DNA of 64,000 nucleotides from Miscanthus floridulus (Eukaryota > Streptophyta > Magnoliopsida > Poales > Poaceae). Location: contig NC_089591.1 in the NCBI RefSeq assembly GCF_019320115.1, forward strand, positions 21,616,502 through 21,680,501, read 5' to 3'. Position 1 is the first letter of the stretch, and each line of letters opens with the position of its first letter. Shown here one piece after another: positions 2,772-63,410 of this stretch. Made by a program: the position numbers and the translations under genes. The notes under the pieces were generated by a model. It searched no databases. It worked only from the letters and a program-made list of their open reading frames with translations, and was not told the DNA's origin.

Positions 2772-5282
2772 TTTTCACAAATTTGAATGCAAACTTCAAA
2801 AATTTATAACTAGAGCTAGGAATGTCCAAATTGAATGAACCAAGTTTTGTTAGATTCATCATGAAGTGTATTATTTGATAAAAATATGAAATATATTATT
2901 TAAGGTATTTTTCTAGGAGAATTAAATTGAGCAAATAAGTGCTTTTAAAATAGTTTATATCTTGTAAATTGCATAACTTGACTTGGGAAGGTGATAAAAT
3001 TGTGATTTCAATTTTTCTGGTCTTGTGTTGACATGCTCTAGCTAGGAAAAATACTAAACCTATAGTATGCATACTTGAAAATTGGTCTTCATATTTAATC
3101 CTAATTAATTGCTAGTTTCTAGTGAAATTAAATGAGGTAAAAATGCATAACATATGAGCATAAAAAAATTGACACAGTATTCTCATGCTAGGAGTAAAGT
3201 AAGAAAAATATTAAATCTATTGTTTGACACTTTTCACTATGTTAAACTATTTTTGCTAAAATTAGCATATGTAACTTGTCATTTTTGTATAGGTAGCTAT
3301 ACCTATCCAAATGGCATGAAATTTGTACAATAGACTACTAGGGTCATTTGTAGGCTATGGTAATTTTATAGGAATTTATTGAATACTAAAGTATTTACTC
3401 TGTAAATCCCCTTATTATCTAAGGAACTTAATAAATGAATATAAATAAATTAGTTATGTTCAACCATGATATTTTGTGTGGTGCTTCTGATGCATGTGAT
3501 CTGTTGATCTTATTAGTAGGCAACTAGTTAATTATTTCTTTATAATTCAACTAAATGGCTGCATGTATAGTCTTTGTTGTAGTGATAAATTCATGATGAT
3601 AATGATATTTTTTGTAAAACTTGTTAACAAGAAAGTTGTAGATAACATACTTATCTACCTTGTGTTAAATTTTCATAGTGATAGGCCTTATGGTTTAAGA
3701 ATTATGGCTGTTAGAAGTCTGCTATCAGAAATGCTTATTTTCTGGACAGATCTCAAAGATTGAATTGTTTGACCTAGAAAACTATTGAATTAGATTAAGA
3801 CTATTGAAACAAAGTTGTAGAAAATTTCATAAGATTTTCAGAATATCCACAAACATATTATTTAGATGTGTATAACTCCAGTTAAGGTTAAAACAAGTGG
3901 TTGTTATCTTGTAGTCTAGAAAATTACTTAGATAAGAATTTGTTTAGTTACTAGGAAGAGATATGCACCTACTCAGTAAAATAAGATGTAACTTGTTATC
4001 ACCTTGATACAATGCTATTGAAAACACCTATGAGAATGCATTTCATCATACCCCACCATATCATACATGTCGTTATATATGCATCCATGATATCTTATTC
4101 CATGATCATGCATATAGGATCATCCGAGGGAATAACTCTTTTGGAGTTTAATGAAGAAGAAGAGGAGGAATAGCAGGAGAAACCTCAGGCTGTAGCTCTA
4201 GAAGGAGAGGAGCAAACTCTTGAGAACCTTCCTGAGTGCACAGATCATAGGCCAACCTCTTTCCTCAAAGGCAAGCCCTGGAGCATTCTAAGTCTCCTAT
4301 GTTTTACAAAACTTCACTTGAGTCCTTTTATGTTTGATGCATTAGGTGATAAGAGTTGAATTGAAACCACTTGATGTATAGAACTACCTTGTCTAGATAT
4401 ATATACACCTTTAACCCTATGTAGGTCTAGGATCGAATACATGCTTAGCCATGCTTAGACCAGTAGAAGTCGGGTGATTTTCTGTCACCTATAAGATATA
4501 GGTGGATACCAAAGCACGGTTGACTATATTTGCTATCATGGAAAAGAACCATGGGGCAATGTAAATGGAGGCCGGGTGGATTCATTGGGTAGGTTAACTC
4601 ATGTGAATCTGTCTATATCGATTAAGGACCGTACTGTTGTTGGCACTTCTGAAAAGATTGAACGCATGCCTCTCACTTAGCTAGACGGATAACTCATTCC
4701 GACCGCGAAGCCAAACAGCTCAACTCAGGCCAGGCCCTATTCTATAAAAGTGTGCACTCTTGATAGTAGTAAGGATGTGCAGGGAGCCAAACATGAGCCC
4801 AAGGGTAGGGTAGTCTAGATCGTCCTAGTAGCTGGTTGTCTTTGATTGTGCGACGATGATCGAACCCGCAAAATGTGGACCTGAGTTGTACCAAAGGTGA
4901 CCTAAGGCTACCATGGCTGGTAGACCTAGGTTTGTGTTAGGAATAAATTCCTAGCTAATTGAAATCAATTCGAATAGTCGTCTCTCCTGAATAGTGAGAA
5001 CTTGGCTAGTACCAACATCATAGTAACTTTATTATGGAATGATGGTTATGATGAACATGGAATTATTATACCTACTATGGTTACTATTGTTATGCTACTA
5101 AATGATATACCACATGTTTGGCATAGGTTATTGCTAATCTAGAGATGAATAACTATAATTAACTTGATGACTGAATTATTAAATGTATAGCTGAATTAGT
5201 GGCTTTTTCTGCAAAATATTGTCAAGCTAGCTCCACTTATAAAGCCTTGCATAATCCTTGGAGTCACTTTATTTTTGGTTTA
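2772..5282 (+). repeat. second complete tandem unit of the 2511-bp duplication
   Basis: This unit is near-identical to the preceding one. At about 5282 the sequence leaves the repeat and runs into the ordinary LTR 3' end (hairpin, terminal coding block, TGCTATA). The array is therefore an expansion inside one LTR rather than an independent satellite. Confidence 0.85.
4118..4359 (+). pseudogene. conserved LTR coding block, subfamily C copy 2 (broken)
   Basis: This is the tandem duplicate of the block at 1607. It has an in-frame TAG at 4171-4173, where the first copy reads CAA, so it cannot encode the full acidic block. Confidence 0.5.
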
Positions 5283-5342
5283 TGACAGTTAAGTCTAGCT
5301 GAGTACCTTCTCGTACTAAGGGTTTTATTCCCATTGTTGCAG

Positions 5343-20602: not shown

Positions 20603-21674
20603 ATGGTCGCACCCATGTTTCCTACTAGTAGCAGCACCTTTTTGGACCAGTTCGGTATGCACCCACCTTGCTCTGGAGGGTGCTCAGTTCAGTTGGGTAC
20701 CCAAAGGCACCTCGCTACACGTGGAGGCAGGCGGTACCATTGGGAGATGTACCATGGTACATTGTGACCTTTATAGTGCCGCAGAACCCCACGAGACCAT
20801 TGTGGCATGGGTGGAACATTGAGACTGATGGGCAAAGCCCATGGGAAGCCGCTCAAGTGGTTGCCCTTGATGTGCTAATGGATATAGCATAGAGCTTCAG
20901 GGATGAGTTAGTGGGTGGACCAGCTTCATCCATTACCCGAGTGGCTCCTACTGAGGCTGAGTGGACTCAAGAAGTTGGTCAAGCTTTGGTTTGAGGCCGT
21001 GGTGAACGTGTTCAGAGCGACAATGCTAGGAATGAGTGCTATCATGGCCGTCTTGAAGCTTTGTCGAGTCAGGCAGGACACCCTTTCTAGTGTGTTAGAA
21101 GAAGCTGGCAAGGCAATGGCAACCGAACACAAGTTCAGGTTGCGTGCCCACAAGTATCGCCGTAGGGTGGATGCATGTGGGTGAGCTTAGCAAGAAGTAG
21201 AGGAGATTCGAGGTATTGCAAATTATTGCCTGCAGCAGTGGGGTCAAACAGCACGCGAGAGAGACGAGCTTCATAACCAGCTTATGAACCTCACCATAGA
21301 GAGAGATGAGGCAGCATAGGAGTTGGATCATGTGACCCATCATAGAGATGCAGCCTTAGAGTTGTCAGAAGAAAGACGTTAGGGCTAGATCATGGCTAAC
21401 CACAATGCTTTCCAAAGGGAGCATGAGCTCCAAGAGCAACTTGAAGAGCTTCAGGTTGAGCACCATCAACTGAACAACCAGTCTATTTCCTATTCCTCAC
21501 CCCATACCAAGGTATCCAAATGTGGGTGGACCTCAAGTGATTGAGGCTGATGAAGAAGAAGAGGACGTGCACATGGATGACAATGCAGCTGAACCTGCAA
21601 ATGAAGAAGAGGAGGAAGATCCGGAAGAAGTCCAAGGCATCTCTGATGTGGACAGCGATCACTTCGATGAGTAG
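20603..21674 (+). pseudogene. ORF0 of chromovirus B (domain + coiled coil + acidic tail), decayed
   Basis: The ATG sits directly on an acceptor-like CAG. After a frameshift near 20690 a folded-looking domain appears (GYPKAPRYTWRQAVPLGD, then VPQNPTRPLWHGWNIETDG and WEAAQVVALDVL), a type I associate with extra ORFs of grass elements. It is followed by a Glu/Arg/Gln-rich coiled-coil region (RERDELHNQLMNLTIERDE; REHELQEQLEELQVEHHQ) and an acidic C-terminus ending SDVDSDHFDE. There are several stops and frameshifts. ORF0 of subfamily A keeps the coiled-coil and acidic parts but has an entirely different N-terminus (an H3-like tail). The role is unknown; an interaction or targeting protein is possible. 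Confidence 0.6.
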
Positions 21675-36439: not shown

Positions 36440-37129
36440 TTAGCTTGATGGTTCTATGTAGAATCCTGCATTGTGAATATTGATAAGATTTGTAGTTTCA
36501 GGATATTCTGGTTGTCCTAGAATCTTATCTTTGTTGGTCGAAGGAACAACAACCACCAACTGAGCTATTTGTGATTCTATCATTTTATTAAAGCTATGCT
36601 GGTTTTTAATGGCTGAGGAGTAGATCCATCTTGGTAGATAGCATATCTACTTCCTTGAGTTAATGCATATCTCCACCTTTCTTATGGGGTTAAAGACATT
36701 CTTCAATCCATTCTTAGTTGGAGGCCATCTTCTCTGTGAGAGTCATTGCTTGTGTGATTGTGAGTGATAAAAATGCACCTCCAGCAGCAACATCCACATT
36801 CTCATAGGTACTGTTAGTCCACCCATGATAGAAAGTCTTTATGAGTAGCCAATTCTCCATCCCATGATGAGGACTTTCTGATATGTCGTCCTAAAAGCGA
36901 TCCCATACCTCAGGGATAGATTCATCATGTTGCTGCTAAAAAATTGAAATTCTTCCACATAGAGCATTGGTTTTGTCTATGGGAAAGAACTTTGCTAGAA
37001 AGGTAGTGGAGCAGATTCCCATGTAGTATTCTTCTCTTTGTTGGCGTAGAACCAATGCTTCACCTTCCCCAAAAGTGAAAATGGGAAGATAAGTAATATG
37101 GCATCTCTAGAAACTCCCTTGATGGTGAA
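36440..37129 (-). pseudogene. gag of the Tat-like element, part 2 (downstream of the insertion)
   Basis: From the target site leftwards the minus strand reads TIKGVSRDAILLIFPFSLLG, HWFYANK, then in shifted frames TTFLAKFFPIDKTNAL, SPHHGMENWLL and AAGGAFLSLTITQAMTL, the conserved series of Tat/Athila gag. It joins in frame to the upstream part at 63406-63608 when the 26-kb insertion and one GTGAA copy are removed (LEIYNTF + TIKGVS). It has several stops and frameshifts. Confidence 0.75.
37125..37129. other. target site duplication GTGAA, left copy
   Basis: The pentamer immediately before LTR A1. It is repeated at 63406-63410 after the third LTR, which shows that the whole 26-kb array occupies one integration site. 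Confidence 0.9.
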
Positions 37130-39902
37130 TGTAACACCCTAGGTGTTTAGGCTTCCACTAAATTGCATGTCATTTCATAAACATGTGCACTATCCATGTC
37201 ATCATGCCATTATCATTGAAACATACATATGCAACATTTTAAATTGTATGTGTTTCATGCTTGATTTCTTAGAGTGGTAGTAGTGCAACATGTGAATGCA
37301 ACATGAAACTCTCATACCTTGAAACATGGCAATATGGTAGTAATGTGCCAAGTATAAAATAATCACAAAGTCATGAAACATGCGAAACATTTCATTGCAA
37401 CATTGGGTAAATTGCTGGTTTTGATTGTTTCATCACATGTGATCAATTGAAATGGTATAACAATTGTGTAAAGTGGTTGATCATGGTCTAATACACCTTA
37501 ACTACACTTAGAGTAATTGTTTGGACATTGTTCATGTAGGTCAAAATGACAAAATTGCCTTTGAATGGAGGTTTGACTTGAAATGAACCCTAGAGTGCCA
37601 CTGTTTGACTGATTCAAAAGACCAACTTAGAGACTTTGCATGGTTGTGCACTCTTTACAAAAGTTGTAGCTAATTTATCAAGGAACAAAAGTTGTTTTAT
37701 GACCAACCCATGAAAATGTGTGGAACATGGTCAAACATGGCCCACAAGTCAGAATTTCAGACTGATTTCATACTTAGAAATTTTCCTAAGTCTTTATGTG
37801 TTTTGTAGTTTCGTGTACCCAACTGTTTCACCTTGTATCTCCCTAATAGAGCCAAACCAGCTCGAGCTCCAATAACAAGAGTTGTAGTTCACATATAGAT
37901 GATCAACTTTGTTAACTATGGCATAGTCTAGAACATCACGGTTTAGGAGCAATTAGCCGTCCAACTCTCTCTGTCAGTCACCTTTGATGATCACTGAATC
38001 GCTGTTTTCAGAAATCGGTCAGTGACCGTCATGGCCGACTGGCTCAGGCGACGTTCGCCACGTGGCGTTCATGCGCTGCCAAGGTCACCACGTCGTGCAT
38101 CCATGCTCCTAAAGAGGGCCAGCGCTTGCTGAACGCGCTCGCTGCTCCATTTCTCCCTCTCGCCTTCCCCGCGCGCAGCGCCATGTTCACAGCAGCCGCC
38201 CGCCATTGCCGACCGAGTATCGCCGCCACCGTGCATGCACGCCACCGTGAAAACGTGTTGCCCCATCTGCCTGTAGCCTCGCCGTGATCCCCTCTGCCAC
38301 CCCCACCCCTCAGCCAGGTCGATTGTGCCGTGGTAAGGACGAATTCGTCATTCCTTTTCCACCGCCGCCGTGGCTGTTCTCGCCGGAGATGACGCTCCGT
38401 GCGGCCAGCTCTCCTCGCGCCATTGCCATCCCTCCTCTGACTTGAGCTAGGTCCGGTGAACCCTACAGAAGCCCGTAGAGCCACCCGTTAGGGCTGTGAC
38501 GCCGTAGCGTCGTCGGAGCCGGCCGTGCAGCAACCGAGCACCGCCGTGGCCATTGCCACCCCTCCTAGTTGCATCAATAGCTACGAATAAGGGTTCCCCT
38601 AGGTCCGCTAGGATGAGGCGAGCACGTAGACACCCTTACCTTCACCGGAGAAGCTACCGGCGACGAGCTTCGCCGCCGTCTCCTCCTCCCCTGCCTGTCT
38701 CGCTGTCATGCGGGACCCAGCTGTCAGCCGCCGAGGCTGAGGCGAGAGCCCAGCGTGGGCCGCACCGCGTCTTGGGCCGCGCCTGTACGCTTCGCGGGCC
38801 GCTGTTCCTTCGGGCCGGCCGAACTGTGGCTGAGTTTTGTTTCCTTATTTGTTTTGTTTTATTATTTCATAGATTTGTATTGATATGCAAAAATCTGTAT
38901 TTCTTAGTATATAGATCCAAATGCTATGGTTCTAATTTTGTTGAGCTCCTAGTATTGTCTAGTATTTAATAAAAATATTATATGAGCAAACATTTTAGAA
39001 ATTCTGGATTTATTAAATAGGACTTTGAAATGTGTTTTTGGATACATGCAAACTTGTTTGAATTTTATCTTGAGTTTCTATGGTCCAAAAATTATGAAAT
39101 TTTGTGGGTAGTCTATTATTGCTTATTAGAAGCTCTGGTTAAAATTTCAGAGCTAGTGCATGTGTAGTTTTTAAGTTATAGAAATTCCTTTTATTAATGG
39201 ATGGATCTTGTGTGAATTTTCATAATTTTTCTATAGATCCAGTATAGGTAAAATTTGGTGAGTAAGGTTCTTATGCTAGAATGATGCTAGGAAAAATGTG
39301 AAATCTATTGCTTGACACTTTTCATTAGGGTTTCCTAATTATGCTCAAATTAGACATGTCATCTGTTATTTTGGGATACAGCAAGTTATGTTTGCCCAAT
39401 GGCTTTGAAATTTTTATGGTAGTCTATGTGCAGCATGAGATAGCTACTATAATTTTTGTAGATTTTTATGAATAGTTTTACTATATATTGCTTAAATCAC
39501 CTAATTAACTAAATAAATTGGAAAAGGATATTAAATAATTTATTTAGAAGTTGGCACTATACTTTCTGATGTTTCTTAGGTATGAAAAACAAGTTGGTAA
39601 ACTTGGTTTGATCAAATTATGCTTTTGCACAATCATTAAATAAATAAGTTAGTAACCCTGTCATTCTGGACAGATTCTAGGTTTGCTGGAAATTGATTTG
39701 GTTAACATCAGAATCATGCTTTGCTGTTTACCATTGATTTGTAGAAAATTTCATAAGCTTTCCAGAATGTCCCCATACAAGTCATTTGGATTTGTATAAC
39801 TCTTGTTGTGATTTAATTACAGGAATACTTGTATGCATATGAAACTTTAAATGTTAAATTATGTATACCGTTACTATTTCTAAGTTGTGGTAATGTTCCT
39901 AG

Positions 39903-39956
39903 GTGTTAGGCCTTTAACCGAAGATGAGCATCTTTATCTTAGGTTATGCAAGTTAG
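39903..39956 (+). other. 54-bp LTR mini-exon, LTR A1
   Basis: Between 'gttcctag' and GTAAGT. It reads VRPLTEDEHLYLRLCKL, then the first base of a Gly codon completed by the next block. Same length and frame as B (29262-29315), with the TEDE-x-LY-x-x-L-x-KLG pattern shared. Confidence 0.5.
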
Positions 39957-40145
39957 GTAAGTTGATCTTGTTCTTTAAGTTAAGTTAGATACATGCTTAA
40001 AGTGATTTGAATAGGGCTAGTCTTACTCGGTAAACGAGTGTCCAGTGATGTTTTCGGTAAACACTTACTGTGATTCATTCATCATGAGCATCATGTCATT
40101 CCTTATGCATCCATGGTATTTATCTTTTGCATCGGCATGCAATAG

Positions 40146-40318
40146 GTGTACCGAGAGGAGTGACCCTACTGGAATTCGAGGAACCGAGCGAGCAGCAGCA
40201 GCCGACACCGGAGATTCAGGAGGAGCAGCCTTCAGGAGAAGTGCCAGACGAGGTCGCCGTTGAGTGCCCGGATCACCGTCCTTGCAACTTTGTGAAAGGC
40301 AAGCCCCGGAGCATATAA
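40146..40318 (+). other. conserved LTR coding block, LTR A1
   Basis: After 'catgcaatag', in phase with the mini-exon across a 189-bp intron-like interval: VPRGVTLLEFEEPSEQQQ, an acidic Gln/Pro-rich middle, VECPDHRPCNFVKGKP, RSI, then TAA at 40316-40318. In LTR A2 the TAA is TTA and the frame continues with SLLNF, as in B and C, so the stop here looks secondary. Location well downstream in the LTR suggests it would lie in the transcribed R-U5 part. Confidence 0.5.
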
Positions 40319-41278
40319 AGCCTCCTAATTTCTGAAATGCAGTTAAAGTATTATTGTTACATATATATATTGTTGCATTAAGTTTAGGTGTTGGATGCAA
40401 ACACTTGCTGCATTGGTTACCCAATTCCTTGTCCAGATATTGTTACCCTGAATCCTATGTAGCTCAGGCTCGTGTAGTGCTTAGCCCCTGCTTTAACACG
40501 GTAGAAGTCGGGTGATCCCTGTCACCTGCGAGATATAGGAATATACATGTGGCACGGTTGGATATATTTGCTATCGTGGAAAAGAACCAGTCTTAAATTG
40601 AAATGAAGACCGGACGGAGGCTTGCCGGTTTGCAGTGACTCCGTCTGTGTCGCTTAAGGACTGATTCTTGGAGCCTTTCCTATTCATGTTGAACGCATGC
40701 CTCTCTCAGGCTGGGAGTCGATAAGTATAAAGTACGCCTCGGAAGGGAGCCGTAGGCGTGAGTCCAAGGGCAGGTGATTTAAAAGTCCTGACTGTCCTGG
40801 TAGAAGGGTAATCCCTGAGAGTGCTGGCGCTGATCGAACCTGTGAATTTGGTTCCTGAGTTGTCCCAAAGGTGACCCATGGCTACCCTTGCTAAGTATGC
40901 CAGGGTGAGAGTTAGGAATACCCCCTCAGCTGAGTTGTAATTCGATTCGAGTCGCCGTCTCTCCCGGTTAGTGAGGAACTTGACGGGCTTATCTCCAATG
41001 TAGATACACTTAATAACATAATGGTTCGGAAATGATGATATGATGATGACAGCCTTATTATACCTGCTATGGTTAATATTGTTTGCTCCTAATAAGTGAG
41101 TGCTCTAGTACAGGTGCTAATCTAGTGGACAGGTAAATAATGATAAGCTTGATGCTAAGTTTAAATTGGTTACTATAATCATAAGCTCTTTTATGCAACT
41201 GTGTCAAGCTAGCCCACCTGAAAAAGCCTTGCATGATCCTTGGTGTCTTTTATTTCTGGTTTTGATGGGTAAGTCTAG

Positions 41279-41300
41279 CTGAGTACCTTCTCGTACTCAG
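41279..41300 (+). other. conserved LTR hairpin, LTR A1
   Basis: CTGAGTAC-CTTCTC-GTACTCAG: a perfect 8-bp stem. The flanking 'ggtaagtctag' and 'ggtttat' are also conserved in subfamilies A, B and C. Confidence 0.6.
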
Positions 41301-41323
41301 GGTTTATCTCCCACCTGTTGCAG

Positions 41324-41385
41324 ATGACCAGTTCTACTTTGGTTACTACAAGTACTGCCTTCTCCCAGCTAGGGATGAAGACTAG
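41324..41385 (+). other. terminal LTR mini-coding block, LTR A1
   Basis: From the acceptor-like 'cacctgttgcag', 19 codons to TAG 41383-41385: DQFYFGYYKYCLLPARDED. Subfamily B has DLLYQGFCKYCLHPAGDED at the same spacing. The mix of synonymous and conservative changes suggests a coding terminal exon. The upstream donor at 41269 would leave a 55-nt intron, too short for ordinary plant splicing, so the real donor is unknown. Confidence 0.45.
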
Positions 41386-41757
41386 ACAGTTGGGCACGGT
41401 CTCTACTAGTTCTTGTACCTGATAATGCTTTTGTGGGACATGACTCAGACTTGGCAATGTAATTGAAAACTGATGATGTTTGTACCAAACTATGTTGCTT
41501 CCGCACACTCAAACTTGGTTTGTAATATTCTATTTCAACTCTGATGGATGTAATCCGAATGCTACTTGTGAAATGTTGTAACGGATGATGTGTTGTGTTG
41601 AATCACTACGATCTTGGTTTGTATGTCGAGAGTTGGTTGAAATCCTTCGTGATTTCCTGGACTACCGGGATTATGGGAGCTTAAGTACAGGAATTTGATC
41701 ACTTCGGTGATTGTTTTTGTACTTACGTTCTTATGATTTGGTCGGTTCTGTTACAGC

Positions 41758-42017: not shown

Positions 42018-42253
42018 GTAAGTGGGAGTTGTGAGAGCATGACCGTCGGTCTAGGGGAGAGTAGTTGTGGTTGCTCGCATACTTACATGTTCGATCATGT
42101 ATCTATGAGAGTACTTAATTGTGGGTATCTCTGACGGGTAGCTGTGATACTAGAATATATGCATCAGGGGATGTATGTATGAAAGTATTTAGTTTACTGC
42201 TTGTTTTCTATGCTTTTTGGGAAATTATTGGGCTGAAATGAATTTTTCTGCAG
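42018..42253 (+). other. putative leader intron 1, unit A1
   Basis: Donor CTG|GTAAGTG, acceptor TTTTTCTGCAG|GTAC, 236 nt. Both sites and the flanking exon words are shared with element B (20102-20350). Confidence 0.45.
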
Positions 42254-42306
42254 GTACACTAACAACGTATCGTTGTAGATCGACTAGCTACCGTGTATGA
42301 GAGAAC

Positions 42307-42504
42307 GTATGTATGCCACCGTATATTTCGCTAGCCTTTAAATTTTTCTAGGTTTGTGAGGACGTATGGATCGTGCATGCATCATGTTCAAGCATACATG
42401 GCATTTCTTGCATTATTCCCTCCCTTAAAATTTGATTGTCCCGACTAATTAAATTTTGTATCCCTTAAATGATTCTCCCCTTACGTTGCAACTTTTTGCT
42501 ACAG
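42307..42504 (+). other. putative leader intron 2, unit A1, ending at the ORF0 ATG
   Basis: Donor GAAC|GTATGTATG and acceptor CTTTTTGCTACAG directly on the ORF0 ATG; 198 nt. The same donor could instead splice to the gag acceptor at 43504, which would skip ORF0. Confidence 0.4.
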
Positions 42505-43090
42505 ATGGCGCGCACGAAACTCACTGCTCGCAAGTCCGCTGGAGGCAGGGCGCCTCGTCACCGTTTAGCTCCTCGTGAGCCCCGTCCTGAGCCTACTGAG
42601 GTGGAAAGGCTGAGGACAGAGCTGGCCCGGGTGACTGCGGAGAGGACTGCAGCTCAGCACCATTTGGAGCAGGTAACACAGGAAAGGGACCAAGAGACCC
42701 TTGAGGTTCAGAGGTTGACAGTTGCTCACCACAACTATGAACGTATGTTGATTCACGTGATGAACCAACGGAATGAAGCCTGGCACGAAGAGAATGTGTT
42801 GAGAGCGCGACAGGTGGAGTTAGAGCAGCAAGTGGCAGTTGCTGAAGGAGTACAATGACAATCTCCATGAGGAGGTTCACCTGTTACACAATCAACTTCA
42901 CCCTCTCCTGCCACCTGATGATGAGGATGAGATGGGTTCTGGTGTCATCATGGCTGAAGGTGATGATGACATGGAGGTCAATGGACCTGAGGACGTTCCA
43001 CCGGATGAGGAGGAAGATGAGGAGTTAGAGCCTGCTAGTGATGAAGATGGAGGAGAGATCTTCGACACTGACTCCGAGGACGATGCGTAG
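42505..43090 (+). pseudogene. ORF0 of unit A1: histone H3-tail mimic + coiled coil + acidic tail, one frameshift
   Basis: ATG on an acceptor-like CAG. After the initiator Met the protein begins ARTKLTARKSAGGRAPR. Aligned without gaps to the H3 tail, 16 of the first 21 residues are identical, including R2, K4, R8, K9, S10, G12, G13 and R17. A coiled-coil region follows (heptad-like Leu/Val with RLRTELARVTAERTAAQHHL and RQVELEQQVAV), then a Pro/Asp/Glu-rich acidic tail ending FDTDSEDDA. One extra A near 42845 ('gctgaaggagtac') shifts the frame relative to the intact copy at 53333; the tail is then open at 42839-43090. K9/S10 and the ARKS word are intact here. Its relation to the chromodomain in the same element is unknown. 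Confidence 0.75.
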
Positions 43091-43504
43091 TTTAGCTTAC
43101 TACTTAGCTAATGCGCTAGATCTAGTCTTTTGTTGATCCTCATGCATGAACGAGTAGCTTTGTAGCAAGTTAATCGTTGGGATGTAATATCGAACCCTAT
43201 GTTACCCTTGATGTAAGTTGGAACCACTATGGCTTGGATGTAACCTATCGAACGTATTATGCTCCACGTATGTGAGCTTTTGATGAATTTCGCCTTGCGG
43301 TCTATGGATCTCGTTGTTGGTTAAGTTCATCGCATTTATGTGTCAATTGATGCGCTTGATGAGTGGTGTGATTGTGATGAATGATTGTGCCTCTATTGAT
43401 TATTTAAATGCATTCTCTCCGATGGAATCAGTTTGGCATAATTATACAATTCATCTACAAAAGTTTCCACATCAGTCAGTGCTCATTGGCTATACCTTTT
43501 GCAG
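43091..43504 (+). other. ORF0-gag spacer of unit A1
   Basis: Noncoding 414 bp with a GTAAGT word near 43213. It ends in the acceptor-like 'ctataccttttgcag' that abuts the gag ATG. Confidence 0.5.
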
Positions 43505-46500
43505 ATGGCTTATAACCTTTCGTCCGGTCGTAGCATGGGAGATGAGGAACAACCACCTCCTCCACCGCCCACACCAGCTGAGCTAATGCAGACGGTCGTG
43601 GAAAGTCAGCGCATGCTAGCTGAGGCTATGCGCCAGATGGCTAACCGTGAGGATCGGCATGTCCGCCTAGGGACCCGAGCCGAACCAGTACAGCAGCTTT
43701 AAGGACTTCATGGACACAAAGCCTCCTATCTTTCGTGAGGCAGAAGAACCCTTACAAGCGGATGAATGGTTGAGCACGATAGAGCAAAGGTTTGGATTGC
43801 TCCGTTTGACTGAAGGCATGAAGGCTTCGTATGTAGGACACCAGCTCCAAGGCCCTGCAGGCATCTGGTGGACCCATCACAGGACCACCTTCCCTGCTAA
43901 CAGTTGAGATCATTTGGAACCAGTTCCAGGCAGCCTTCAGGGGACACTTTATCCCTCCTGGTCTCGTGGCCATTAAGCATGCTGAGTTTATGAAGCTCAC
44001 CCAAGGCAACAAGAGTCTCAATGAGTACCTCCAGGCATTCAACAACCTGGCAAGGTATGCTCCTGAGTTCATCGATACTGACGCCAAGAGAATAGCTAGC
44101 TTCAAGAGGGGACTTTCCCCAAAACTAATGAAGTCAATGGGCAACTGCAAGTGTGTCACCTTCAATGAGTTTATCAGTGACACTCTGACCCAGGAGAACA
44201 ATGACAAGATATATGCTGCTTCCAAGAACCGTAAAAGGAACTTTGAGGCTGGTGCTTCCCAGTCCAAGGCTCCAATGGTATCTAAGACCCCGTACCGTCC
44301 ACCCAATGCTAATATCCAGTATCGCCCACCTCAGAAGAAGAACCAAGCTAAAATCGGTTTCCGCAAGGGATATACAATTTCCTTGCCAAAGAATACCTCT
44401 GGGCAGGGTAGCTCCAATGTTCCACCAGCAAATAGGCCGTGCTGGAACTATAACCAGCCTAGTCATTGGGCAAATAGATGTCCCCATCCTCCCAAGAATG
44501 CTCAAGGAAACGTCCGTCTGGGGTGTGTTCACTATACTACAGTGGAGGAAATTCCTGCTGGTGAAGTGGTCACCGCTGGTAAGTTCCTTGTTAATGATCA
44601 CCCTGCAGTTGTGCTCTTTGATTCGGGTGCTTCGCACTCCTTTATGAGTTCTACTTTTGCATCTAAGCATAATATGAATGTGATTACAATTGTCAAGGGT
44701 GGTTATTGTATTAGTGCTGCTGGAAATAATATCCTGACTAACCAAGTAGTTAAAGATGTAAAGATTGAGATTGGGGATCGAGAGTTCCGTATGGATCTTG
44801 TGGTTCTACCAGGGGTAGGAATTGATATAATCCTAGGAATGAAGTGGATGAGCGGGAATGGAGTGTTGATCGATACCTCAACCCGTGTGGTAATGTTGAG
44901 GGATCCTGTGGATAAGAAGGGTTTTCTAGTGCAGTTACCTCGTGATATCTCTATCCACAATACAGCCAATGCTACCCTAGCCAAAGCCATTAAGGATCTA
45001 CCGGTTGTCTGTGAGTTTCCAGATGTCTTTCCTGATGACTTGCCTGGATTACCTCCAGGACCGTGATGTAGAATTCAAGATAGAACTCATTCCGGGTACG
45101 GCTCCTATTTCTCGAAGGCCCTATAGAATGCCGCCCAATGAGTTGGCCGAGCTGAAGAGTCAGTTGAATGAGCTATTGAAGAAAGGTTTGATTCGACCTA
45201 GTTCTTCTCCTTGGGGTTGTCCAGCTATATTTGTGAAGAAGAAGGATGAGTCTTCTACGCATGTGCGTGGATTATCGCCCCCTAAACGCTGTTACTATCA
45301 AGAACAAATACCCTCTTCCTCGCATCGATATTCTGTTTGATCAGCTCTCCAAGCTAAGGTATTCTCCAAGATCGATTTGAGGTCTGGCTACCATCAGATC
45401 AAAATTCGTCCTGAAGATATACCTAAGACAGCTTTCTCTACTCGTTATGGCTTGTTCGAATACCTCGTCATGTCATTTGGGTTGACAAATGCTCCGGCAC
45501 ACTTTATGTACCTGATGAATTCTGTATTCATGCCAGAATTGGACAAATTTGTCATCGTGTTCATTGATGATATCCTAGTATATTCTCAGAATGAAGAAGA
45601 GCATGCTGAACATCTGAGAATTGTTTTAACTCGGTTACGTGACAACCAGCTTTATGCTAAGTTCAGCAAGTGCGAGTTCTGGTTGAACAAGATACCTTTT
45701 CTAGGTCATGTATTATCTGGTGATGGAATTTCGGTTGACCCTACTAAGGTGCAAGAAGTCCTTGAGTGGAAGGCACCTACTACGGTCACAGAAGTCCGAA
45801 GTTTCCTGGGATTGGCTGGCTATTATCGTCGCTTTATCCCGGATTTCTCAAAATCGCCAAGCCCATGACTCGACTACTGCAAAAGGATGAGAAGTTTGTG
45901 TGGACTCCGAAGTGTGAAGAGGCTTTCCACACTTTGCGGACCTTACTAACCTCTGCTCCTGTATTGGCACAACCTGACATCGAGAAGCCTTTTGATGTCT
46001 ACTGTGACGCATGTGGCACCAGTTTGGGGTGTGTTCTTATGCAGGAGGGCCGAGTAATTGCTTATGCTTCACGCCAGCTTCGAAAGCATGAAGTCAACTA
46101 TCCTACCCATGACTTAGAGCTAGCCGCAGTTGTTCATGCCCTGAAGATTTGGAGACATTACTTGCTGGGTAATGTGTGCAACATCTATACTGACCATAAA
46201 AGCCTCAAGTACATCTTTACTCAACCCGAGTTGAACATGCGTCAACGACGATGGTTAGAATTAATCAAAGACTTACAACCTTCAAGTGCACTACCATCCC
46301 TGGTAAGGCAAATGTGGTTGCTGATGCCTTAAGCAGAAAGGCCCATTGCAATTCCTTGGTTAGTGAAGACTTTCATCTGGCACACCTCCTTCATCCTGTA
46401 GTACTCCACAATATCACTGTGGATTGCTCTCTTAGAAGTCGAATTATCGAACTCCAGAAGACTGATGTGGGTGTGTTTCACATCAAGCAGGAAAATGAAA

Positions 46501-47886
46501 GAGAAAGAGACCAAGCACTTTAGGGTCGATGACAAGGGAATTCTCTGGTTTAATGATAGGCTTGTGGTACCCAAAGACAAAGAACTTAGAAATCAAATTA
46601 TGGCTGAAGCCCATTCTTCTAAATTGTCCATCCATCCTGGTAGCAGTAAAATGTATCAAGATCTCAAGCTGTATTATTGGTGGACCAAGATGAAGAAAGA
46701 AATCGTAGCTTACATGGCAAGGTGTGATAACTGTTGCAGAGTCAAGGCTATTCACATAAGGCCCGGACTATTGCAGCCACTCTCTATTCCTGGCTAGAAG
46801 TGGGAAGAAATTAGCATGGATTTTATTGTTGGATTACCCACTACCAAAAAGGGTTGTGATTCCATCTGGGTTATCGTAGATCGTCTAACTAAATCTGCTC
46901 ACTTTATTCCGGTCAAGTCTACCTATCATCCCTCACAATTATGCTGAGATTTATTTTCAACAAGTGGTACGTCTCCATGGTGTACCCAAATCCATTGTTT
47001 CTGATAGAGGACCTCAGTTCACTGGCTCGCTTTTGGGAGTGCTTACATCAGAATCTTGGCACTCATCTAATCCGCAGTTCTGCCTATCATCCGCAAACAT
47101 CAGGATAGACTGAGCGTGTTAATCAAATTCTTGAAGACATGCTTAGAGCTTGTCTTATCTCTTGCAAAGGCTCTTGGGAAGACTGGTTACCTCTCGCTGA
47201 ATTCTCTTATAACAACAGTTATCAAGAAAGTATCAAAATGGCTCCTTTTGAAGCTCTTTATGGCCGCAAGTGTAGAACTCCTTTGAACTGGGTGGAACCC
47301 GGAGAAAGAAGATTCTATGGTATTGATTTTGTAAAAGAAGCCGAAGAGCAAGTCCGAACTATACAGAAGAATATGACTGCCGCACAGGCTAGACAAAAGA
47401 GCTATGCTGACAAAAGAAGAAAACCTATTGAGTTTGAAGTAGGTGATCATGTTTATTTGAAGGTATCCCCTATGAAAGGAGTCAAGCGTTTTGGAATTAA
47501 AAGGAAGCTTGAGCCTCGATATGTTGGACCCTACCGCATTATCGAGAAAAGTGGAAGAGTAGCATATAAGCTTCGATCTACCACGTGAGATGGGAGCTAT
47601 ATTCCCGGTATTCCATGTGTCCCAGCTGAAGAAGTGTCTTCGTATTCCTGAGGAAAGAATAGCAACAAGGAAAGTCAACTTGAAATCTGATCTTTCTTAT
47701 GAGGAAAAGCCCGTGCAAGTTCTGGATACACAAGAAAGAGTGACTCGTACACGAGTGGTTAAGTTATACAAGGTAGTTTGGAGTAATCATAGTGAACGGG
47801 ATGCAACCTGGGAGCGGGAAGATTATTTAAAGGAAAACTATCCAGCTTTCTATACTGATTGGTACGCTTTCCAAATCTTGGGATGA
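43505..47886 (+). pseudogene. gag-pol polyprotein of unit A1, broken by many single-base indels
   Basis: Gag starts MAYNLSSGRSMGDEE followed by Pro6. Knuckle [14 protein letters not shown] at 44440-44481; retropepsin FDSGAS at about 44617; RT with [14 protein letters not shown] and FIDD at 45560; RNase H with VYCDACG and YTDHKSL; integrase with the HHCC zone near 46610-46740, a core Asp in MDFIVG and SDRGP; chromodomain YKVVWSNHSERDATWE near 47766; stop TGA 47884-47886. Relative to unit A2 there are about ten one-base indels (near 43672, 43904, 45058, 45252, 45354, 45850, 46271, 46487, 46930, 47022) and a TGG-to-TAG at about 46796. Not translatable as it stands. Confidence 0.92.
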
Positions 47887-53332: not shown

Positions 53333-53917
53333 ATGGCGCGCACAAAACTCACTGCTTGCAAGTCCGCTGGAGGCAGGGCGCCTCGTCACCGTTTAGCTCC
53401 TCGTGAGCCCCGTCCTGAGCCTACTGAGGTGGAAAGGCTGAGGACAGAGCTGGCCCGGGTGACTGCGGAGAGGACTGCAGCTCAGCACCATTTGGAGCAG
53501 GTAACACAGGAAAGGGACCAAGAGACCCTTGAGGTTCAGAGGTTGACAGTTGCTCACCGCAACTGTGAACATATGTTGATTCACGTGATGAACCAACGGA
53601 ATGAAGCCTGGCACGAAGAGAATGTGTTGAGAGCACGACAGGTGGAGTTAGAGCAGCAAGTGGCAGTTGCTGAGGAGTACAATGACAATCTCCATGAGGA
53701 GGTTCACCTGTTACACAATCAACTTCACCCTCTCCTGCCACCTGATGATGAGGATGAGATGGGTTCTGGTGTCATCATGGCTGAAGGTGATGATGACATG
53801 GAGGTCAATGGACCTAAGAACGTTCCACCGGATGAGGAGGAAGATGAGGAGTTAGAGCCTACTAGTGATGAAGATGGAGGAGAGATCTTCGACACTGACT
53901 CCGAGGATGATGCGTAG
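53333..53917 (+). CDS. ORF0 of unit A2: histone H3-tail mimic, coiled coil, acidic tail (intact frame)
   Basis: 194 codons from the ATG abutting 'ttgctacag' to TAG 53915-53917. Residues 2-22 align to the H3 tail (ARTKLTACKSAGGRAPR). The residue equivalent to H3 R8 is Cys here (TGC at 53357-53359) where unit A1 has CGC, a CpG C-to-T change. Residues about 28-125 are rich in Glu/Arg/Gln with Leu/Val spacing of a coiled coil. From about 135 the chain is acidic (DDEDEMGSG, EEEDEELEPTSDEDGG) and ends DTDSEDDA. An in-frame ATG 36 bp upstream would add a hydrophobic lead; the H3-like start at the acceptor is preferred because it matches unit A1 and places Ala after Met as in H3. No known enzyme domain. 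Possible roles (inference): binding by the element's own chromodomain, or competition for host H3 readers and modifiers. Confidence 0.75.
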   Translation: MARTKLTACKSAGGRAPRHRLAPREPRPEPTEVERLRTELARVTAERTAAQHHLEQVTQERDQETLEVQRLTVAHRNCEHMLIHVMNQRNEAWHEENVLRARQVELEQQVAVAEEYNDNLHEEVHLLHNQLHPLLPPDDEDEMGSGVIMAEGDDDMEVNGPKNVPPDEEEDEELEPTSDEDGGEIFDTDSEDDA

Positions 53918-58726: not shown

Positions 58727-61504
58727 CTATAACACCCTAGGTGTTTAGGCTTCCACTAAATTGCATGTCATTTCATAAACATGTGCATTATCCATGTCAT
58801 CATGCCATTATCATTGAAACATACATATGCAACATTTTAAATTGTATGTGTTTCATGCTTGATTTCTTAGAGTGGTAGTAGTGCAACATGTGAATGCAAC
58901 ATGAAACTCTCATACCTTGAAACATGGCAATATGGTAGTAATGTGCCAAGTATAAAATAATCACAAAGTCATGAAACATGCGAAACATTTCATTGCAACA
59001 TTGGGTAAATTGCTGGTTTTGATTGTTTCATCACATGTGATCAATTGAAATGGTATAACAATTGTGTAAAGTGGTTGATCATGGTCTAATACACCTTAAC
59101 TACACTTAGAGTAATTGTTTGGACATTGTTCATGTAGGTCAAAATGACAAAATTGCCTTTGAATGGAGGTTTGACTTGAAATGAACCCTAGAGTGCCACT
59201 GTTTGACTGATTCAAAAGACCAACTTAGAGACTTTGCATGGCTGTGCACTCTTTACAAAAGTTGTAGCTAATTTATCAAGGAACAAAAGTTGTTTTATGA
59301 CCAACCCATGAAAATGTGTGGAACATGGTCAAACATGGCCCAAAAGTCAGAATTTCAGACTGATTTCATACTTAGAAATTTTCCTAAGTCTTTATGTGTT
59401 TTGCAGTTTCAGTGTACCCAACTGTTTCACCTTGTATCTCCCTAACAGAGCCAAACCAGCTCGAGCTCCAATAACAAGAGTTGTAGTTCACATATAGATG
59501 ATCAACTTTGTTAACTATGGCATAGTCTAGAACATCACGGTTTAGGAGCAATTAGCCGTCCAACTCGCTCTGTCAGTCACCTTTGATGATCACTGAATCG
59601 CTGTTTTCAGATATCGGTCAGTGACCGTCATGGCCGATCGGCTTAGGCGACGTTCGCTGCGTGGTGTTCATGCATTGCCAAGGTCACCACATTGCACATC
59701 CGCGCTCCTAAAGAGGGCCAGCGCCTACTGAACACGCTCGCCACTCCATTTCTCCCTCTCGCCTTCCTCGCGCGCAGCGCCGTGTTCACAGCAGCCGCCC
59801 GCCATTGCCGACCAAGCATCGCCGCCACCATGTGCGCACGCCACCATGAAAACGTGTTGCCCCATCCACCTATAGCCTCACCGTGATCCCCTCTGCCACC
59901 CCCACCCCTCAGCCAGGTCGATTGTGCTGTGGTAAGGACGAATTCGTCATTCCTTTCCACCGCCGCCGTGGCTGTTCTCACCGGAGATGACGCTCCACGT
60001 GGCCAGCTCTCCTCGCGCCATTGCCATCCCTCCTCTGACTTGAGCTAGGTCCGGTGAACCCTACGGAAGCCCGTAGAGCCACCTATTAGGGCTGTGACGC
60101 CGTAGCGTCGTCGGAGCCGGCCATGCAGCGACCGAGCACCGCCGTGGCCATCGCCACCCCTCCTAGTTGCGTCAATAGCTGCGAATAAGGGTTCCCCTAG
60201 GTCCGCTAGGATGAGGCAAGCACGTAGACACCCTTGCCTTCGCTGGAGAAGCTACCGGCGATGAGCTTCGCCGCCGTCTCCTCCTCCTCCCCTGCCTATC
60301 TCACTGTCACGCAGGACCCAGCTGTTAGCCACCGAGGCTAAGGCGGGAGCCCAGCGTGGGCTGTGCTGTGTCTTGGGCTTCGCCTGTATGCTTCGTGGGC
60401 CGTTATTCCTTCGGGCCGGCCCAACTGTGGCTGAGTTTTGTTTCCTTATTTGTTTTGTTTTATTATTTCATAGATTTGTATTGATATGCAAAAATCTGTA
60501 TTTCTTAGTATATAGATCCAAATGCTATGGTTCTAGTTTTGTTGAGCTCCTAGTATTGTCTAGTATTTAATAAAAATATTATATGAGCACACTGTTTTAG
60601 AAATTCTGGATTTATTAAATAGGACTTTGAAATGTGTTTTTGGATACATGCAAATTTGTTTGAATTTTATCTTGAGTTTCTATGGTCCAAAAATTATGAA
60701 ATTTTGTGGGTAGTCTATTATTGCTTATTAGAAGCTCTGGTTAAAATTTCAGAGCTAGTGCATGTGTAGTTTTTAACTTATAGAAATTCCTTTTATTAAT
60801 GGATGGATGTTGTGTGAATTTTCATAATTTTTCTATAGATCCAGTATAGGTAAAATTTGGTGAGTAAGGTTCTTATGCAAGAATGATGCTAGGAAAAATG
60901 TGAAATCTATTGCTTGACACTTTTCATTAGGGTTTCCTAATTATGCTCAAATTAGACATGTCATCTTTTATTTTGGGATACAGCAAGTTATGTTTGCCCA
61001 ATGGCTTTGAAATTTTTATGGTAGTCTATGTGCAGCATGAGATAGCTACTGTAATTTTTGTAGATTTTTATGTATAGTTTTACTATATATTGCTTAAATC
61101 ACCTAATTAACTAAATAAATTGGAAAAGGATATTAAATAATTTATTTAGAAGTTGGCACTATACTTTCTGATGTTTCTTAGGTATGAAAAACAAGTTGGT
61201 AAACTTGGTTTGATCAAATTATGCTTTTGCACAATCATTAAATAATTAAGTTAGTAACCCTGTCATTCTGGACAGATTCTAGGTTTGCTGGAAATTGATT
61301 TGGTTAACATCAGAATCATGCTTTGCTGTTTACCATTGATTTGTAGAAAATTTCATAAGCTTTCCAGAATGTCCTCATACAAGTCATTTGGATTTGTATA
61401 ACTCTTGTTGTGATTTAATTACGGGAATACTTGAATGCATATGAAACTTTAAATGTTAAATTATGTATACCGTTACTATTTCTAAGTTGTGGTAATGTTC
61501 TTAG

Positions 61505-61558
61505 GTGTTAGGCCTTTAACCGAAGATGAGCATCTTTATCTTAGGTTATGCAAGTTAG
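61505..61558 (+). other. 54-bp LTR mini-exon, LTR A3
   Basis: Same frame and GTAAGT donor as in A1 and A2; the acceptor side reads 'ttcttag'. Confidence 0.45.
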
Positions 61559-61747
61559 GTAAGTTGATCTTATTCTTTAAGTTAAGTTAGATACATGCTT
61601 AAAGTGATTTGAATAGGGCTAGTCTTACTCGGTAAACGAGTGTCCAGTGATGTTTTCGGTAAACACTTACTGTGATTCATTCATCATGAGCATCATGTCA
61701 TTCCTTATGCATCCATGGTATTTATCTTTTGCATCGGCATGCAATAG

Positions 61748-61920
61748 GTGTACCGGAAGGAGTGACCCTGCTGGAATTCGAGGAACCGAGCGAGCAGCAG
61801 TAGCTGACACCAGAGATTCAGGAGGAGCAGCCTTCAGGAGAAGTGCCAGACGAGGTCGCCGTTGAGTGCCCGGATCACCGTCCTTGCAACTTTGTGAAAG
61901 GCAAGCCCCGGAGCATATTA
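61748..61920 (+). pseudogene. conserved LTR coding block, LTR A3 (broken)
   Basis: Reads VPEGVTLLEFEEPSEQQ, then TAG at the third Gln codon (CAG in A1 and A2). The remainder still shows VECPDHRPCNFVKGKP. Confidence 0.5.
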
Positions 61921-63405
61921 AGCCTCCTAATTTCTAAAATGCAGTTAAAGTATTATTGTTACATATATATATTGTTGCATTAAGTTTAGGTGTTGGATGC
62001 AAACACTTGCTGCATTGGTTACCCAATTCCTTGTCCAGATATTGTTACCCTGAATCCTATGTAGCTCAGGCTCATGTAGTGCTTAGCCCTGCTTTAACAT
62101 AGTAGAAGTCAGGTGATTTCCTGTCATCTGCGAGATATAGGAAGATACATATGGCATGGTTGGCTATATTTGCTATCATGGAAAAGAACCAGTCTTAATT
62201 TGAAATAAAGACCGGGCGGAGGCTTGCCGGTTTGCAGTGACTCCTGTCTGCGTCGCTTAAGGACTAATTCTTGGAGCCTTTCCTATTCATGTTGAACGCA
62301 TGCCTCTCTCTTAGTTGGCCTGGCCCAAAGACCGACCGTGAAGCCGAGTAGCTCAACTCAGGCTGGGAGTCGATAAGTATAAAGTACGCCTCGGAAGGGA
62401 GCCGTAGGCGTGAGTCCAAGGGCAGGTGATTTAAAAGTCCTGATCGTCCTGGCAGAAGGGTAATCCCTAAGAGCGCTAGCGCTGATCGAACCCAGTGAAT
62501 TTGGTTCCTGAGTTATGCCAAAGGTAACCCACGGCTACCCTTGCTAAGTATGCCAGGGTGAGAGTTAGGAATACCCCCCTCAGCTGAGTTGTAATTCAAT
62601 TCGAGTCGCCGTCTCTTCCGATTAGTGAGAACTTGACGGGCTTATCTCCAATGTAGATACACTTAATAACATAATGGTTCGGAAATGATGATATGATGAT
62701 GATAGCCTTATGATACCTGCTATGGTTAATATTGTTTGCTCCTAATAAGTGAGTGCTCTAGTATAGGTGCTAATCTAGTGGACAGGTAAATAATGATAAG
62801 CTTGATGCTAAGTTTAAATTGGTTACTATAATCATAAGCTCTTTTATGCAACTGTGTCAAGCTAGCTCACCTGAAAAGCCTTGCATGATCCTTGGTGTCT
62901 TTTATTTCTAGTTTTGACGGGTAAGTCTAGCTGAGTACCTTCTCGTACTCAGGGTTTATCTCCCACCTGTTGCAGATGACTAGTTCTACTTTGGTTGCTA
63001 CAAGTACTACCTTCTCCCAGCTGGGATGAAGACTAGACCGTTGGGCACGGTCTCTACTAGTTCTCGTATCTGATAATGCTTTTGTGGGACATGACTCAGA
63101 CTTGGCAATGTAATTGAAAACTATGATGTTTGTACCAAACTATGTTGCTTCCGCACACTCAAACTTGGTTTGTAATATTCTATTTCAACTCTGATGGATG
63201 TAATCCGAATGCTACTTGTGAAATGTTGTAACGGATGATGTGTTGTGTTGAATCACTATGATCTTGGTTTGTATGTCGAGAGTTGGTTGAAATCCTTCGT
63301 GATTTTCGGACTACCGGGATTATGGGAGCTTAAGTACTAGGAATTTGATCACTTCGGTGATTGTTTTTGTACTTACGTTCTTATGATTTGGTCGGTTCTG
63401 TTATA

Positions 63406-63410
63406 GTGAA
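63406..63410. other. target site duplication GTGAA, right copy
   Basis: Matches 37125-37129. Joining the two flanks through one copy restores the Tat gag frame. Confidence 0.9.

Follow-up and report, generated by a model that had tools for sequence, protein, structure and literature searches.

A conserved histone H3 tail-like N-terminus on ORF0 of Tekay-type retrotransposons in Miscanthus floridulus

Introduction

Viruses are known to encode histone mimics, and one influenza protein, for instance, bears an H3-like tail. Uptake of histone sequence by a transposon was described for fungal hAT elements, in which H3 coding sequence was transduplicated and amplified; these copies are mostly truncated (71–100 residues), intronless and mostly inactivated by RIP (PMC6710886). 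In grasses, where Tekay-like elements are highly repeated (PMC3350952), an additional frame, ORF0, has already been named in the Tekay elements Retrosat2, RIRE3 and RIRE8 (PMC3485330). By the accounts in PMC3485330 and PMC11728184, this frame is located upstream of gag-pol in elements with long LTRs, evolves fast and has no accepted function. PMC3485330 suggests mainly hydrolase-like roles for ORF0, and PMC11728184 presents nuclear localisation and a DRBM-like structure; the word 'histone' is absent from the main texts of both papers.

The window (the whole stretch of 64,000 nucleotides of Miscanthus floridulus DNA that was analysed) contains an ORF0 that likewise precedes gag-pol in an element with long LTRs and starts with a close match to the H3 tail. 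As with the viral mimics, a parasite codes for a protein with an H3-tail-like segment; unlike them, ORF0 bears its match at the N-terminus, over 23 residues and in exact register, and it belongs to a chromosomal LTR retrotransposon and shows an exon-capture signature. The fungal hAT elements likewise took up and amplified H3 coding sequence, whereas ORF0 appears to hold the H3 first coding exon only, with its reading conserved. The ORF0s of Retrosat2, RIRE3 and RIRE8 were compared through the text of the papers. The preliminary description of this DNA knew of no named plant retrotransposon protein of this design; ORF0 itself turned out to be named, and the statement stands for the histone tail as far as the main text of PMC3485330 goes. 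No report of a plant retrotransposon H3-tail mimic was found in the open-access literature, judged by titles and the starts of abstracts, with subscription papers mostly outside this scope; the closest paper encountered was that on H3 in fungal hAT elements (PMC6710886). ORF0 itself was known before, and the H3 tail on it is apparently unreported in the open-access literature.

Structure of the retrotransposon array

The element forms a tandem array of the type LTR-internal-LTR-internal-LTR, in which the middle LTR is common to both units, as seen by self-comparison and from the LTR ends. The main features of the array are listed below.

37130 to 41755, forward strand: LTR 1, TGTAACACCC...TGTTACA, the first of three (self-comparison, ends)
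43990 to 45066, forward strand: C-terminal part of gag and aspartyl protease (RVP_2, Pfam)
47139 to 47588, forward strand: C-terminal part of integrase (SH3_Tf2-1, Pfam)
47707 to 47850, forward strand: type II chromodomain (KPVQVLDTQ...YPAF), in which W is the only one of three aromatic cage residues present, by the motif rules of PMC3350952
47909 to 52584, forward strand: LTR 2, common to the two units
58728 to 63405, forward strand: LTR 3, directly followed by GTGAA (63406–63410)

The LTRs are about 4.6–4.7 kb long, and LTR 1 and LTR 2 are 98% identical. A direct repeat GTGAA (37125–37129 and 63406–63410) flanks the entire array, and the region 37125–63410 appears to behave as a single insertion that could have arisen by inter-element recombination or by tandem insertion. 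Across the two units Pfam detects RVP_2, RVT_1, RNase H, H2C2 and SH3_Tf2-1, in the order gag-protease-RT-RNaseH-integrase. The integrase ends in KPVQVLDTQERVTRTRVVKLYKVVWSNHSERDATWEREDYL, which, read against PMC3350952, is a type II chromodomain with the TWE motif. In our own placement of residues W45 is present, but the aromatic cage lacks its first and third residues, a described trait of the type II group (PMC3350952). PMC6317226 states that no partner has been identified for type II chromodomains. The long LTRs, the domain order and the type II chromodomain class the element, at the sequence level, as a Tekay-type chromovirus with an ORF upstream of gag. Elsewhere in the window, a 2.8-kb segment (positions 1–2772) recurs at 2512–5283 with 98% identity.

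The N-terminus of ORF0 matches the H3 tail

The window contains two copies of the tail-bearing ORF0, one in each unit.

42505 to 42576, forward strand: H3-tail module, Met plus 23 residues (24 codons), as long as coding exon 1 of the intron-containing H3 genes of the host
42577 to 42858, forward strand: remaining ORF0 open frame of this copy, with a linker and the first part of a coil-like region, breaking before the C-terminal part
42839 to 43090, forward strand: C-terminal ORF0 piece in another frame, with the coil end and an acidic tail (tblastn)
53333 to 53917, forward strand: second ORF0 copy, 194 residues, uninterrupted, R8 replaced by Cys

The first copy starts with MARTKLTARKSAGGRAPR and reads MARTKLTARKSAGGRAPRHRLAPREP. 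After the initiator Met, 16 of 21 residues are identical to H3 in exact register from residue 1; the mismatches are at positions 5, 11, 14, 18 and 19, and K4, R8, K9 and S10 are retained, exactly as the preliminary description had it for this copy. The tail is thereby an in-register N-terminal H3 tail with the K4/K9 context. The second copy matches H3 at 15 of 21 residues and has Cys at position 8 in place of R8. Under an A/R/K-rich background composition, the probability of at least 16 matches in 21 is 1.2e-13 for the copy at 42505. A phmmer search of PDB sequences with 22 tail residues returned 130 matches at E<=1 (best E 4.2e-6), and all entries among the matches listed (60 of 130) are H3.

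The frame opened by the ATG at 42505 stays open to 42858 and is lost after approximately residue 114; the C-terminal piece resumes in another frame from 42839 (tblastn). The intact 194-residue protein first assigned to position 42505 is in fact that of the second copy (53333–53917). No Pfam Histone match was found in the window ORF0 or in family B (see below), and the similarity to H3 ends at residue 23. With the ORF0 proteins as queries, Pfam yields weak matches alone, largely to coil models, and a scan of IMG/VR with the ORF0 protein gave 56 stretches that fit a pattern, none of them confirmed.

Copies and families of tail-bearing ORF0

A search of the 2.68-Gb host genome with the window ORF0 yielded 11,725 first-look candidates, of which the best 150 were scored. 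We read the 30 best-scoring loci, a set biased to intact copies that includes the window's own second copy (L029). K4, K9 and S10 are all present in 30 of these 30 loci, R8 in 27, and the start Met is lost in one. Tails were further counted in a set of 135 sequences, made up of 133 proteins from databases and both window copies, with a cut-off of 9 H3 matches out of 22. The cut-off is reached by 45 sequences; the other 90, many of which start inside the protein, were left out of the tail counts. Among the 45, K4, K9 and S10 are each retained in 44, R8 in 34 and R2 in 32. Related copies random at K4, K9 and S10, named in the preliminary description as evidence against its reading, were thus not observed in either set. 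Where R2 or R8 is lost in these sequences, the replacement is C, H or Q, which would fit decay of methylated CpG.

The pattern MARTKxTA has 941 matches in the genome and none in the control. We read 28 of them in a non-random choice (the first eight and 20 selected loci, nine of the latter for a variant start); 18 belong to a family termed B and ten to a family termed D. Both families were retrieved by a pattern that fixes residues 1–4, 6 and 7, and these residues are not independent evidence of conservation. Family B starts with MARTKQTARKSTGGRAPR..., and its member L001 matches H3 at 18 of 21 residues, closer than the window ORF0 (family A). Family D retains ARTKxTARK only and, as an exception to the retention of S10, has lost this residue and all that follows. 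A gag-protease frame of the same type lies downstream of ORF0 in the loci checked, L024 of family B and L012 and L013 of family D. In family D (L002, L009–L017) the copies read further have a long acidic low-complexity stretch downstream, and the ORF0 ATG is directly preceded by the acceptor-like TATAG.

With the family-B protein as query, the database search returned 32 hits. P0149 is 42% identical over 88% of the query and starts with MARRRLTAHKSTGGRVPRHQL, with R at position 4 and H at position 8; with the tail excluded, its body aligns with family B (E 1e-63) as well as with the window ORF0 (E 2e-17). P0152 was hit with E 2.5e-4, and its upstream translation matches the window leader (54%, E 4.5e-5). 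P0154 (E 0.018) and P0159 from Aristida adscensionis (E 3.9; start MMARTKQTARKSTGGRVPTRQLAPR, with one additional Met) have bodies similar to each other (E 2.8e-12), and BLAST found no significant match of these bodies to the window ORF0, family B or P0149. The two proteins appear linked to the ORF0 family only by the tail and the layout with a coil and an acidic end. Further database proteins (P0155/P0164, P0156/P0163, P0158/P0160 and P0161) start with the H3 tail MARTKQTAR[KQ]STGGRAPR on other bodies; P0156 is named for Xylaria cf. heliscus and has PF00646. All of these further proteins were retrieved with an R14-bearing query, and their common R14 is not independent.

Another element in the window carries a related ORF0, family C.

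20603 to 21024, forward strand: family C ORF0, a single decayed copy interrupted by stops and a frame change, starting with MVAPMFPTSSSTF and having no H3 tail; acceptor context and body are similar

The leader upstream of the family C ATG (20603) is 75% identical to that of the window ORF0, and the bodies are related. Three of the groups were found without use of the tail: family A (window; tail), family C (window; no tail) and P0149 (tail). Since family C has no tail and family D keeps just ARTKxTARK, the whole module is dispensable.

Origin of the tail and splice-like context

The similarity among tail-bearing ORF0s extends to residue 23 and then stops. Mean pairwise identity of six sequences (A, B, P0149, P0152, P0154 and P0159; D was omitted, its tail ending early) is 0.83 in residues 1–10, 0.77 in residues 11–23 and 0.12 in residues 24–36. 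The sharp end of the similarity had been recognized in the preliminary description, which put it at about residue 21. In the host genome, 18 loci are 100% matches to the full H3 query, and there are further intron-containing H3 loci. In all nine fetched intron-containing loci (L074–L082) similarity ends after residue 23 at a GT. In three of the nine, L076–L078 of one gene group, the ATG directly follows TTAATGCAG, so that CAG adjoins ATG; the ORF0 ATG is directly preceded by TTTTGCTA[C/T]AG in 30 of the 30 best-scoring loci. The following splice-like sites are predicted around ORF0.

42018 to 42023, forward strand: splice-donor-like GTAAGT in the leader, directly after CTG
42490 to 42504, forward strand: splice-acceptor-like AACTTTTTGCTACAG, adjoining the ORF0 ATG
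43495 to 43504, forward strand: second acceptor-like CCTTTTGCAG, directly 5' of the ATG (43505) with which the gag region opens

The 487-nt intron-like stretch 42018–42504 contains 18 ATGs. The donor-like columns are 90–100% conserved among copies, not above the leader mean of 95%. With one donor-like and two acceptor-like sites, alternative splicing could select ORF0 or gag. An in-frame ATG is located 36 nt upstream of the ORF0 ATG, at 42469; it would bury the tail unless the leader is spliced, and leader splicing is predicted. The acceptor-like site supports a mature free N-terminus at A1, and the ATG at 42469 argues against it unless splicing takes place.

In length and in splice-like context, the module corresponds to coding exon 1 of an H3 gene with introns. 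The best nucleotide matches of the tails are also intron-containing H3 loci (family B to L082, 50 of 63; family A to L074 and L075, 46 of 63), and the donor gene cannot be named because silent sites are too altered. Most likely, an H3.3-type intron-containing host gene was the source of the tail, its first coding exon (24 codons) having been captured by the element. The six whole-tail sequences have R14, R23, and R or H at position 18 in common, which argues for a single exon capture. Later loss of the tail in family C, and of part of it in family D, would fit this scenario, as would gain after C had split off.

Evidence for selection on the tail

Tails of five sequences (the 53333 copy, L001, P0149, P0154 and P0159) agree with each other at 14–19 of 21 residues, and the remaining parts are 24–44% identical where alignable. 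Between the window and family B, tail codons 2–22 have pN 0.10–0.12 and pS 0.78–0.84, compared with pN 0.44 and pS 0.79–0.81 in the rest of ORF0; silent sites are near saturation in both parts. In codons 9–22, outside the retrieval pattern, 11 of 14 residues agree, seven of the 11 by a different codon. Between the window and family D only codons 2–10 are conserved (pN 0.00–0.05); codons 2–22 overall have pN 0.45–0.46, and the rest 0.43–0.52. Among the 30 loci, states present in at least three copies comprise six silent and three replacement changes in the tail and 24 and 16 in the rest; singletons comprise two silent and four replacement changes in the tail and 34 and 41 in the rest. The argument for purifying selection rests on the comparison of the window with family B, not on these within-family counts. 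Mimicry of the H3 tail, as proposed in the preliminary description, is borne out as a conserved sequence feature by the copies and families, the codon evidence and the match to an exon boundary.

The ORF0 body

The body of family-B ORF0 and its relatives is predicted to have a dsRBD-like fold and topology, comparable to the dsRBDs (alpha-beta-beta-beta-alpha) of TRBP, Loquacious, Staufen, DRB7.2 and DCL4, with 11–18% identity in the VIA rows considered. Family-B ORF0 has no Pfam dsRBD match, and the KKxAK motif of RNA-binding dsRBDs is absent from it. The window ORF0 has no dsRBD-like domain; in the alignment, this body is missing between the tail and the coil. Family C ORF0, though tail-less, has the dsRBD-like body. 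VIA also matched the region of the coiled coil to PI3K p85 and others, a result discounted as a resemblance between helices.

Possible function of the tail

Seven tail-bearing groups (A, B, D, P0149, P0152, P0154 and P0159) were compared residue by residue. K9 is kept in all seven and is the sole lysine kept in all; K4 is lost in P0149. R2, T3 and K4 are kept in seven, six and six groups, respectively. None of the seven groups keeps K14, K18 or K23, and six of them have R or H there; of residues 1–10, position 5 varies most. As described in PMC6208443, the plant reader AGDP1 contacts A1, R2, K4, A7, R8 and K9me2 of the H3 peptide in its complex, whereas T3, Q5, T6 and S10 remain uncontacted; R2, T3, T6 and R8 form bonds inside the peptide. 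The ORF0 tails largely retain the AGDP1-contacted positions. T6 is as invariant as the contacts, yet uncontacted; its bonds in that complex are intra-peptide (PMC6208443). According to PMC9699677, SHH1 recognizes K9me2 when K4 is unmodified, and some of the Pol IV targets depend on SHH1 for recruitment. AGDP1 and SHH1 are considered here as proposed partners of the ORF0 tail, not as relatives.

With its conserved H3 tail, the element seems to imitate the mark by which its host silences it. Retention of the AGDP1-contact positions with position 5 varying, together with the specificity of SHH1, makes a decoy the most economical reading, in line with the competition for host H3 readers or methyltransferases put forward in the preliminary description. 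Removal of the initiator Met would expose A1-R2-T3-K4...R8-K9 at a free N-terminus, the coiled coil, followed by the acidic C-terminus, could present several tails per complex in a multivalent manner, and the tail may serve as a decoy substrate or ligand for host writers and readers of H3K9me2 with unmodified K4. Candidate targets are SUVH-type methyltransferases and the readers AGDP1 and SHH1; silencing would be titrated while the element is expressed. We infer capture, modification of the tail and decoy action alike from the sequences. Taken jointly, the proposal that ORF0 is an accessory protein that captured the first exon of H3, is kept by purifying selection and acts as a decoy for readers and writers of H3K4me0/K9me2 is held tentatively, at somewhat less than an even chance. 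We speculate further that the dsRBD-like part of related ORF0s may counter the Dicer/DRB side of the silencing pathway. The resulting two-armed anti-silencing ORF0 is possible but doubtful; in it, a tail derived from a host H3.3 exon, cleared of the acetylatable K14, K18 and K23 but retaining K4 and K9, would mimic a permanently hypoacetylated, K9-methylatable H3 tail and titrate H3K9me2 readers and writers, and the family-B dsRBD-type arm would act against Dicer/DRB.

The same tail conservation could also speak for a tether: once methylated at K9, the tail would be recognized either by readers of heterochromatin or by the integrase chromodomain that the element itself encodes, and would steer ORF0-associated complexes to heterochromatin for integration. 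The element does encode a chromodomain of a type whose partners are unidentified (PMC6317226); however, nothing found here connects ORF0 with integrase or capsid, and a domain with one of three aromatic cage residues (PMC3350952) speaks against the binding by the own chromodomain that had been suggested in the preliminary description. We regard tethering as unlikely. It is somewhat unlikely, too, that the tail is a generic basic N-terminus for nuclear import or RNA/DNA binding, with H3 identity just the heritage of the captured exon. Residues 1–25 carry a net charge of +6 to +8 in eight of nine sequences (+4 in the ninth), the replacement of K14, K18 and K23 by R or H in six of the seven groups would preserve such a character, and the published ORF0 predictions include nuclear localisation (PMC11728184). 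But a generic basic tail would have no need of this register, and uncharged A1, T6 and A7 are invariant along with K9 in all seven groups (A1, T6 and A7 being fixed by the retrieval pattern in B and D), position 5 being variable.

The near-complete retention of R2, T3 and K4 could alternatively reflect competition for writers or erasers of the K4 region, such as demethylases and K4 methyltransferases, in place of H3K9 readers; P0149, which has K9 and no K4, and the standing of K9 as the sole lysine common to the seven groups make this improbable. Finally, chance resemblance or a functionless relic of H3 capture has precedents in the fungal hAT transduplication of whole H3, with amplified copies inactivated in most species described (PMC6710886), and in the tail-less family C. 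Against it stand the chance probability of about 1e-13, the residues kept between the window and family B despite silent sites near saturation, and the occurrence of like tails on very different bodies, and we consider it very improbable.

ORF0 has been without accepted function (PMC3485330), and the conserved H3 tail makes that function directly accessible to assays in which peptides are combined with the plant readers already known. If the decoy reading is true, ORF0 would be a retrotransposon-coded histone mimic that opposes the very host pathway silencing that retrotransposon, and an exon captured from a histone gene would have been turned into counter-defence. If the two-armed reading is true as well, a single oligomeric protein would undermine transposon silencing in its chromatin branch and in its small-RNA branch alike.
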